From: an uncultured Pseudomonadales bacterium
Lineage (GTDB): Bacteria > Pseudomonadota > Gammaproteobacteria > Pseudomonadales > Azotimanducaceae
DNA length: 64,000 nt
Assembly (NCBI GenBank): GCA_958296405.1
Contig: OY282519.1
Span: forward strand, 1,410,132 to 1,474,131
Reading direction: 5' to 3'
Below are positions 13,164 through 18,854 of this stretch, piece by piece. The position numbers and the translations under genes were made by a program. The notes beneath the pieces are model-generated. The model was given only the letters and a program-made list of their open reading frames with translations. It did no database searches and was not told the DNA's origin. How positions within the stretch are numbered: the first letter of the stretch is position 1; each line of letters opens with the position of its first letter.

Positions 13164-13279
13164 CGTTGCCCCTCGCGGCTACTCGAATCGGAGTGTACCC
13201 CACGCTTGGGCGAAGGCGAGTCGAACGATGGCGGGGCGTTACCATGCCCGCTTTCGGCGGCTCCACAGGGGAGGCCACC

Positions 13280-14018
13280 TTGATCGACCTCTACTACTGG
13301 CCCACCCCGAACGGCTGGAAGGCCACGATCATGCTGGAGGAGTGCGGCCTGAAGTACCGCTTGATCCCCGTGGACATCGGCCGCGGCGACCAGTTCAAGC
13401 CGGAGTTCCTGCGCATCAGCCCAAACAACCAGATGCCGGCGATCGTGGATCACCATCCTTTGGGAGGTGGCGAACCGTTGGCCATCTTCGAGTCCAGCGC
13501 GATTCTCGAGTACTTGGCTGACAAGACCGGCAAGTTCCTGCCCTTGGACGTGGCGGCGCGATACAAGGCGTTGCAGTGGGTGCATTGGCAAGCGGCGAAC
13601 TTGGGGCCGATGATGGCCAATACCAACCACTTCAAGAACGACGCCCGCAACATCGTTGATGATCCGAAGATGCTCGCTTATGGGGAGAAGCGCTTCGTCG
13701 GTGAGGTGGACCGGCTCTCCGGCGTAATGGACGCCCAGCTTTCCGCCAATGAATACCTGGCGGGCGCGGAGTACAGCATTGCCGACATCAGCAGCTGGCC
13801 ATGGGCGATGCTCATCGGCCGCATGCTGGGCGAAGAGATGTGGGAGAACTGCCCGCACCTGAAGCGTTGGGTGGATCAGCTGCGCGCCCGTCCAGCCGTG
13901 GACCGGGGTTTCCGCGCCCATCGCGAATGGGGCCAGCGCGAACTCACCGAAGCAGAGGAGAAGGCGCACCGCGAGCTGCTCCTCAACCAAGACAGCGGGA
14001 AGATGCAGGCGGTGCGCA
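13280..14018 (+). repeat. Direct repeat of GST coding sequence, copy 1
   Basis: About 740 bases that match 18855-19593 on the same strand, encoding GST sequences about 90% identical. Similarity also runs some 35 bases upstream of both TTG codons (a shared GGCGTTA-x-CATGCC stretch). In copy 1 the match decays shortly after the codons for NQDSGK, where the GT-D-like domain begins. Confidence 0.85.
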
Positions 14019-15004
14019 AAGCCGCAGCCCAGACGGTCGCAAAGCGCCAAGCGGACACCCGGCGCAAGGTCGAACTTGCCGACACAGAGGCTCGGCTCAA
14101 CGCGTTCGAGGTTTTCTTGGAAGTGAAGCGACGGATGGATCAGGGAACGCCGTGTTCCGCGGTTCGCCTTGGCGACGGCGAAGGTATTGTCCTCGGCTAT
14201 CCGGAGTTTACGAATCGACGCGATGTGGATGAGTACCTGCTGAGATGGATTCGGACAAAGGATGTCGCGGAGGCGGACGTCCGCCAGCTCGTCGATGCGC
14301 TGAGGGCTGCGGTGAAAGATGCAGACATCGTGGGCCTGCCGCGCCCAAAGCAGATGGTCTATCGCAGTTACCAAGCAGTGTCCCAAGCCATCGAGGCGTT
14401 CAACCTGCGAAGCGCGTCCACGTTAGTGACCCATGCGGCTCTCCATCGGCTATTGCAGTATGCGCTGCTCTATCGTCCGCTGCTTCAGGGTGCGCGCTTC
14501 CTGGGCTTGATTTCCTGTCGGGACATTGCCGAAGACCTGCAAGCGTTGTTCGGCATCCGCGCAACCCGCTGGTATGGCGTGCGCGGCGAAGACGTGACGC
14601 ACTTCACCGACTTCGACATCGACCAGCCCGGCCCAATAGAGACCATGCACTATCCCGACGGCTACCGCCAACTATACGAAGAGCTCACCGTTCCGTTCCC
14701 GGGCGCGTTGTTCCTCGTGGGTGCCGGGGCCTTCGGCAAGATCTATTGCCATTGGATTAAGCAGCGAGGCGGAGTGGCCATCGATATCGGCTCGTTGTTT
14801 GATTCTTGGGCCGGTGTCGGCCGCATCGGCCGTGGGCTTGGCGTTCACGCCTTCAGCTTGGCCGTGTATGGAGAGATGCCAAGCATTCGCCGCGACGAGG
14901 CCATTCAACGCTACAACGACCTATTGCAGCGCCTTGGTTTGGACGACATCTCGCCGGCGCCGACCGACGCCGCCTACATCAAGGAGCTTCCGGAAAGCTG
15001 GTAG
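13280..15004 (+). CDS. GST fused to a GT-D-like glycosyltransferase domain
   Basis: A 574-residue chimera. Residues 1 to about 246 are a glutathione S-transferase of the YfcG/Nu type: TPNGWKATIMLEE at the start, QMPAIVD with the cis-proline and FESSAIL for the glutathione gamma-glutamyl group. About 217 of the first 241 residues match the stand-alone GST at 18855. From about residue 260 a different domain follows, with VRLGDGEGIVLGYPEF, DIVGLPRP, GLISCRD and VGAGAFGKIYCHWIKQRGG. These resemble the GT-D fold (DUF1792-type) proteins found in glycosylation loci. TTG at 13280 is preferred over the ATG at 13244: GGGAGG lies 8 bases upstream, and in the paralogue the equivalent ATG is out of frame. 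Domain assignment of the C-terminal part is by recalled motif pattern only. Confidence 0.8.
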   Translation: MIDLYYWPTPNGWKATIMLEECGLKYRLIPVDIGRGDQFKPEFLRISPNNQMPAIVDHHPLGGGEPLAIFESSAILEYLADKTGKFLPLDVAARYKALQWVHWQAANLGPMMANTNHFKNDARNIVDDPKMLAYGEKRFVGEVDRLSGVMDAQLSANEYLAGAEYSIADISSWPWAMLIGRMLGEEMWENCPHLKRWVDQLRARPAVDRGFRAHREWGQRELTEAEEKAHRELLLNQDSGKMQAVRKAAAQTVAKRQADTRRKVELADTEARLNAFEVFLEVKRRMDQGTPCSAVRLGDGEGIVLGYPEFTNRRDVDEYLLRWIRTKDVAEADVRQLVDALRAAVKDADIVGLPRPKQMVYRSYQAVSQAIEAFNLRSASTLVTHAALHRLLQYALLYRPLLQGARFLGLISCRDIAEDLQALFGIRATRWYGVRGEDVTHFTDFDIDQPGPIETMHYPDGYRQLYEELTVPFPGALFLVGAGAFGKIYCHWIKQRGGVAIDIGSLFDSWAGVGRIGRGLGVHAFSLAVYGEMPSIRRDEAIQRYNDLLQRLGLDDISPAPTDAAYIKELPESW

Positions 15005-15891
15005 CGGTGCGAAGTCTTGCCGACGCCACCTTTGTTGTTGAAAGCGGCGATGCTTTTTGTTGTTGAAAGCGGCGATGCTTTTCGTGTGCGAGGGTCGCGC
15101 CGCGCTCGCACCGTCACCGTCACAAGCTCTGGCAGGAAGCCGAACTCTGGGGGCGGGTTGCCGTTGTCCGTGAGCGACTGCTTGGCTAAGGGAATGCCAA
15201 GCCCAAAACGCTGCGCGAAGCCAAGGTTCGCCATGATGCCCGCGAGCAGTGGGTTGCGGTAGTCGGCATCGCCATCACTAACGGCCTCTGGCGTCATGCG
15301 CCCGTACAAGCCGCCGGGGTTGGTGATTTCCACCCGGTCGGCGTACCAGTGGATGCGCACTGGCGCGTATGTGCCCTCGTAACTTCGATGCATGATGGCG
15401 TTGTGCGCTAGCTGCCGCAGGGCGTCCAGCGGATAGTCCGGGTAGCGCCGTTCTCGCATCGATCCTGTCACTTGGATGGCCACCGTGACATTCAGGGCAA
15501 GCAGGTCGTCTAGCTGGTGGATGACGTCGTCCAAGCGGCCGGCGAGGCGCCGTTCGATGACGATGGGCGCCGTCACTTCGCGGCCGGCTAGGCGCAGAAA
15601 CTGAACCGAGGCGCCTGGAACGAATGCTTGGGGATCGTTCGTGAATGCGATGAGCGCCGCCCAAGTGGGAACGCCGGCATGGGCCAATCTCAGGGAGGCG
15701 AGCTGGTCCTGCAACGCTTGGGCGTCGCGGCTCAACGCCTCGCGGTCGATGGCGCTTGGCAGGTAGCGGTCGCGAAGAAAGTCGGTGTCTAGCGCGGCGA
15801 GGTCCGTCCCCGTGGCAGGTCTGGAGTCGAAGGGCAGGTGGCTGGCCCACTCCTTGAACTTCACCAAACCGGACTCGAGGTCGCTCATCAT
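14974..15891 (-). pseudogene. Truncated HATPase-type ATP-binding protein with ParA Walker A remnant
   Basis: An open frame of 305 codons that looks like debris of two genes. Its main part matches the middle and C-terminal part of RecG-like ATP-binding regulators (AlbA_2 plus HATPase_c_4 family): LRQLAHNAIMHRSY, ITNPGGLYG, DYRNPLLAGIM and NGNPPPEF. The usual N-terminal AlbA_2 DNA-binding domain of about 110 residues is missing. The last codons read KSIAAFNNKGGVGKTS, the first strand and Walker A loop of a ParA-type ATPase, and then run antisense into the end of the GST-GT-D gene. A 25-base tandem duplication sits at this junction. Probably non-functional; a truncated but expressed protein cannot be excluded. 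Confidence 0.7.
15031..15082. repeat. 25-base tandem duplication in the ParA remnant
   Basis: Two copies with period 25 (15031-15057 and 15056-15082), each containing GTTGTTGAAAGCGGCGATGC. They lie over the start of the ParA-like remnant on the minus strand. As 25 is not a multiple of three, the duplication changes the reading frame. It is not a CRISPR unit: there are only two copies and no spacer. Confidence 0.85.
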
Positions 15892-18753: not shown

Positions 18754-18854
18754 GCGCTTTGCCACTCCCCACGCCGTCAATCGCGGCCAAGGTTACTCCA
18801 ATGGCGGCGAGGCGTTAACATGCCTGCCTTCGACGACCCCGCAAGGAGCCCACG

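Follow-up and report, generated by a model that had tools for sequence, protein, structure and literature searches.

Two species of uncultured Pseudomonadales bacteria share an in-frame fusion of a Nu-class glutathione S-transferase and a GT-D-like domain

Here, we analyzed a 64,000-nucleotide stretch (the window) of the genome of an uncultured Pseudomonadales bacterium (G000; a single contig of 3,825,434 bases), which carries a gene joining a glutathione S-transferase (GST) to a GT-D-like domain and, downstream of it, a lone GST gene (Table 1). Translation of the frame at 13280-15004 yields 574 codons with zero stops, and the Pfam profiles GST_N, GST_C and GT-D-like (PF22882) each score above their cut-offs in this single protein, the two GST profiles spanning residues 4-205 and PF22882 beginning at residue 274. 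The lone gene encodes GST domains only, as judged by Pfam, and its product is 87% identical to the fused GST over 254 codons, compared to the 90% or so quoted in the initial annotation. That annotation had also described the in-frame join, in agreement with the open frame, the domain content and the second genome presented below, and the motifs LGDGEG and GLISCRD, which we place at residues 296 (RLGDGEG) and 410 (LISCRD), along with GAGAFGK at residue 481. DNA similarity between the fused and lone GSTs runs from about 13209, some 70 bases before the start, to 14036, and ends two codons short of the stop of the paralogue. The similarity to GT-D-like genes begins at about 14075-14100, which leaves a linker of approximately 13-20 residues with a source traced to neither parent.

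The TTG at 13280 is the likely start codon, given that an ATG, GTG or TTG occupies this position in all 13 aligned GSTs (9 relatives, 2 fused and 2 lone copies) and that GGGGAGG directly precedes it. An in-frame ATG at 13244 is a possible alternative, and examination of the upstream stretch revealed no promoter-like site 5′ of the start.

Table 1. Features of the fusion locus and of the related lone gene in the window
Feature	Positions	Strand	Basis and remarks
GST-GT-D-like fusion gene	13280..15004	+	574 residues, start TTG; open frame, counterpart in G008, both halves constrained
Upstream stretch apparently copied along with the GST	13209..13279	+	GGGGAGG before TTG; shares 43 of its first 60 bases with 18785-18844 (5′ of the lone GST)
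Nu-class GST half, residues 1-252	13280..14035	+	Pfam, NCBIfam, YfcG alignment, 87% identity to paralogue
Linker, residues 253-265	14036..14074	+	Alignable to neither parent
GT-D-like domain, residues 266-574	14075..15001	+	PF22882 at 62.1 bits, fold match to 4phr/4pfx, alignment
Probable parental gene: lone Nu-class GST of 254 residues	18855..19619	+	Pfam; downstream neighbor shared in G001, G003 and G007

The same architecture, which the initial annotation had suggested seeking in related genomes, is present in another uncultured Pseudomonadales bacterium (OY282379.1; hereinafter G008). A whole-protein search of 58 genomes, including that of the window, yielded an open, stop-free match in G008 over residues 1-574 with 90% identity, the sole other full-length match among the matches listed. 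The junction DNA is nearly identical in the two genomes, and the frame, for which a break at the join had been considered, is intact across it in G008. Given that the same frame recurs in a second genome, chance or misassembly is very unlikely to be the source of the join: the gene is a genuine in-frame fusion of a Nu-class GST and a GT-D-like domain, carried by two species and evolving under constraint, and represents a new combination of known domains.

Of 206 genomes from the family, 7 matched the GT-D half, and 2 of these (G000 and G008) contain the fused frame. A tblastn search with the lone GST (E ≤ 1e-4) found no GST at the loci around the GT-D matches in G003, G007, G225, G216 and G026, the fetched loci of G216 and G026, where the GT-D matches are weak, being only ~3 kb long. 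In G225 (L049:9319-10194), the GT-D-like gene is broken up across more than one reading frame and adjoins a gene that, by eye, reads as a PhyH-type dioxygenase. On a broader scale, a phylum sample of 398 genomes contained 8 with PF22882 (3 above the cut-off), and an order sample of 390 contained 6, where the 2 above the cut-off are the two fusion species; in a class sample of 369 genomes, 2 were matched by a profile of the GT-D-like subfamily. A GST domain was absent from all 6 candidate GT-D-like frames scanned, and one weak GT-D-like match, to a phosphoglucose isomerase, was false. A scan of named genomes with two peptide patterns recovered 7 loci, among which a GST (E ≤ 1e-4) is present only in L051 of G008, joined to the GT-D-like domain. 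Searches of open-licence PMC papers (titles and beginnings of abstracts) turned up no description of a GST/GT-D-like protein, and nothing was found in the open-licence PMC literature on natural GST domain fusions or on an architecture combining a GST with a glycosyltransferase domain.

Nu-class GSTs bind two glutathiones or one GSSG molecule and display disulfide reductase or lyase activity. In the fusion protein, GST_N and GST_C score 49.3 and 31.6 bits (cut-offs 20.9 and 20.7, respectively), and the fusions of both species carry the TPN motif at residues 9-11 and the FES triplet; the Thr-Pro-Asn motif activates the glutathione thiol in this class (PMC5892560, excerpt). YfcG and YghU of Escherichia coli and NaGSTNu of Novosphingobium share GST_N/GST_C and TPN with the fusion, for which the best PDB matches are 4l8e and YfcG (3gx0), but their chains, of ~215-293 residues, lack the GT-D-like domain that the fusion carries, and the scores against the YfcG (NF010579, 209.9 bits) and YghU (NF008731, 152.5 bits) equivalog profiles are below the respective cut-offs of 332 and 325. 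The contacts of NaGSTNu with glutathione-1 also include Gln, Lys, Ile, Glu and Ser (PMC5892560, excerpt). As mapped by motif and not by structure, Q38, E71 and S72 are retained in the fusions; residue 51, an Arg in the 12 other GSTs and a Gln in the window fusion (R51Q), sits at the contact lysine; and G73S in the fused GST of G000 lies next to another contact. Altogether, 9 of 141 otherwise invariant GST sites are changed in the fused copy of G000, compared to 2 of 134 in that of G008; for the lone copies, the counts are 1 of 133 and 0 of 132. The distant GSTs of G022 and G023 have 7 of 139 changed each, and the nine changes are notable for a short branch but not unheard of. Relative-rate comparisons with seven outgroups assign 13-18 amino acid changes to the G000 side versus 4-6 to the G008 side, and, by this measure, the GST half is evolving faster in G000 than in G008. 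That only two invariant sites are changed in G008 suggests that, in this species, the GST half still does something specific.

Glycosyltransferases of the GT-D type transfer sugar from a nucleotide sugar. The second half of the fusion protein matches PF22882 far above the gathering cut-off of 27 bits, with the best stretch covering positions 2-130 of the 210-position profile plus a second stretch, and the D-G-E of RLGDGEG is present in all 8 aligned proteins. In DUF1792, Asp-X-Glu holds Mn (PMC6493773, excerpt), and the Asp-X-Glu within RLGDGEG appears to be this GT-D Mn motif. Among the 68 residues that are invariant in 8 lone GT-D-like proteins, 67 are kept in G000 and 65 in G008, RLGDGEG included. 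Modeled alone, the GT-D half reaches a pLDDT of 67 and a pTM of 0.75, which speaks moderately for an independently folding domain, and a fold search matches it to the DUF1792/GT-D entries 4phr/4pfx, with Foldseek TM-scores to GT-D entries of only 0.36-0.42. The Z-score alone does not separate TagA/GT-E from GT-D (10.9 vs 11.3); the sequence family and Asp-X-Glu favor GT-D. A full-length model built from 9 sequences (pLDDT 48.4) was set aside as uninformative on the arrangement of the halves. It is the fold search alone that succeeded against known structures, as the profile of the GT-D half produced no credible match to PDB sequences (best E 0.35); the Pfam GT-D family PF08759 had no matches in the genome of the window at E up to 1, and the NCBIfam model GT-D_rel (NF040628) scored 50 bits, below its curated cut-off of 75. 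Together, the fold, motif and family point to a metal-dependent nucleotide-sugar transferase, so that the glycosyltransferase of the initial annotation stands as a prediction and not as an observed activity.

In the known systems, the GT-D partner is different. The DUF1792/GT-D glucosyltransferase domain of dGT1 from Streptococcus parasanguinis, 15-18% identical to the GT-D half over the aligned part, is paired with a GT-A-type glycosyltransferase rather than with a GST. PF22882 proteins with N-terminal TPR belong to the same Pfam family and likewise possess an N-terminal extension, but the partner is TPR, not GST, and their Pfam scores are lower, at 31-45 bits; TPR matches were obtained for 3 GT-D-like proteins of 2 genomes, one of them above the TPR cut-off. 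The lone GT-D-like gene of the window genome (G000:C1:2633449-2634432) encodes a protein that is 59-61% identical to the fused half over the domain but lacks a GST and occupies a separate tree branch. This gene adjoins a sulfotransferase gene, and the lone GT-D-like gene of Aestuariibacter lies near a family-2 glycosyltransferase gene; in the Pfam scan of such neighbors, which left out G003 and G007, two neighbors of a Gemmatimonadetes GT-D-like gene had no Pfam family.

The downstream neighbor of the lone GST is the same in G001, G003 and G007 as in the window, and G007 has kept the gene order, from a PhyH dioxygenase through other genes to a xanthine-dehydrogenase-like gene and the GST. Thus, the most likely original is the lone GST, with the fused GST being a copy set between the PhyH and xanthine-dehydrogenase-like genes. 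A tree of 13 GSTs groups the four copies from G000 and G008, fused and lone, in a single clade (support 1.000), within which the two fused copies pair at 0.935 when the whole length is used. In trees of two parts of the gene, the fused pair is split, with the fused copy of G008 grouping with the lone copies (0.891 and 0.627), and in local blocks the fused and lone GSTs of G008 show few or no silent differences; both observations are likely explained by gene conversion between the copies. Judging from these comparisons, the fusion is older than the split of the G000 and G008 species and younger than their split from the other sampled members of the genus. Therefore, of the earlier claim of a recent fusion at the end of the repeat with the second GST, the in-frame event and the duplication of the neighboring GST hold, but the very recent date does not. 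Between G000 and G008, dS is 0.05-0.12 in nine neighboring genes, 0.19-0.23 in the lone copies, and 0.16 and 0.36 in the GT-D part and GST residues 1-212 of the fusion, respectively, a spread that is not accounted for by a single clean vertical history.

With respect to the GT-D half, recent copying from the genome's own lone GT-D-like gene was rejected on the divergence between the two (dS ~1.1 at 61% identity). The two fused proteins form a fully supported pair in a tree of 10 GT-D-like proteins, where a Gemmatimonadetes protein is placed close to those of the genus (support 56-68), a weakly supported hint of transfer of a GT-D-like gene between lineages. A GT-D-like protein encoded in a Gemmatimonadetes metagenome-assembled genome (L055:5533-6396) is 54% identical to the fused one, and the isolate name of this genome is from the series (jk18x...) to which those of G003 and G007 also belong, perhaps reflecting transfer between co-living bacteria. 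A phage origin of the GT-D half was rejected, with no matches in 50,697 phage records (E ≤ 0.01), as was a plasmid source of the whole fusion: among the 1087 matching plasmid records, none covers over 80% of the query, and in the 15 listed the match lies at the GST end, extending over query residues 1-288 at the widest.

The two fusions differ by 146 substitutions over 1722 bases, with no indel and 56 changed residues. When these substitutions were placed at random (2000 trials; a plain model without mutation context), 99 amino acid changes resulted on average and 77 at the lowest, with a mean of 2.7 stops and zero stops in 6.4% of the trials. The dN/dS ratio is 0.126 in GST residues 1-212 (p 9e-15) and 0.32 in the GT-D part (p 9e-6); it is not clearly different from 1 in the GST tail, residues 213-252 (0.37, p 0.14), or in residues 253-271 around the linker (0.165, p 0.17, few sites), 18 of 19 of which are identical between the species. 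For comparison, the lone GST has a ratio of 0.053, the lone GT-D-like gene one of 0.19 and the nine neighbors 0.03-0.15; the stronger constraint on the lone GST is as expected if this copy has retained the old function.

We favor, with about even confidence in the scenario as a whole, the following account. In the common ancestor of the sister species, a Nu-class GST gene with its upstream start region would have been copied from its original site into the space next to a PhyH-type dioxygenase gene, ahead of a GT-D-like gene, and the two frames would have merged a few codons short of the stop of the GST, an origin that synteny, the tree and the shared junction support. The product would be a single polypeptide, with the two recognizable domains tethered by a short linker. 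Going by their families, the GST half is expected to dimerize in the manner usual for GSTs and to bind glutathione, and the GT-D half to catalyze metal-dependent nucleotide-sugar transfer. The GST half might then serve mainly as an N-terminal expression and dimerization module that pairs two GT-D active sites, with selection acting on sugar transfer, at a weak guess to a cell-surface glycan, while the lone GST would continue the ancestral redox work.

An unlikely alternative is that the chimera is an accidental passenger, expressed but of little import and slowly decaying, with the GST half loosening in G000. The excess of changed invariant sites in G000, the higher dN/dS of the GT-D part compared to the lone GT-D-like gene, and the dS of the fusion above that of its neighbors, indicative of a history that is not simple, are compatible with this possibility, but amino acid changes are far fewer than under random placement, and neither species has a stop or a frameshift. 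Slightly less probable still is a true bifunctional enzyme, in which the handling of glutathione or a glutathione conjugate by the GST is chemically coupled to sugar transfer by the GT-D half; a small molecule or protein might, for instance, first be deglutathionylated and then glycosylated. The TPN motif and FES triplet in both species, the constraint on both halves and the ability of Nu-class GSTs to act as glutathione lyases in vitro (PMC5892560, excerpt) fit such a coupling; R51Q and G73S at or beside motif-mapped glutathione contacts in G000 do not, and no gene linking the two chemistries was recognized among the neighbors. More doubtful again is a new class of glutathione-linked glycosyltransferase, with the GST presenting or stripping glutathione-bound acceptors for the GT-D half, or sensing redox state to switch sugar transfer. 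It is also improbable, a shade more so, that the GT-D half is additionally or mainly produced from an internal start near codon 242, with the GST part as a leader: an in-frame ATG is available at 14003 in the window and a GTG in G008, but the start codon thus differs between the species, the GST frame is free of stops, and no well-spaced ribosome-binding site was seen by eye in both. Finally, misassembly or sequencing error at the join, although invited by two similar GSTs 5.6 kb apart (84% over a 300-base repeat), is very unlikely given the same join in the single-contig genome of the other species with its substitutions spread along the gene.

GSTs are seldom combined with other domains, few such cases being reported in a survey of >13,000 sequences (PMC3995644, excerpt), and in the gene described here, one is fused to an enzyme of another kind. 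The probable parental gene is available, as are the junction from two species and the fusion-free gene order of a relative, so that one can date and dissect how a two-domain enzyme came into being. Cooperation between the halves, if it occurs, would link glutathione chemistry to glycosylation.

The end of the fusion gene is overlapped by a gene on the opposite strand (14974-15891, minus) with a HATPase_c_4 domain (Pfam). Its C-terminus contains AFNNKGGVGKT, which resembles a ParA Walker A motif, next to a short repeat at ~15030-15080, and the gene looks like the remains of two genes. Only a short piece resembling it is found in G008, where genes for a DUF6946 protein and a PIN-domain protein (L039:9300-11762) replace those of the window downstream of the fusion, and this spot may be an insertion hotspot. 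Genes for PhyH-like dioxygenases are numerous in the genus, with 17 to 57 matches per genome (E ≤ 0.001) in 9 genomes (G000-G008).
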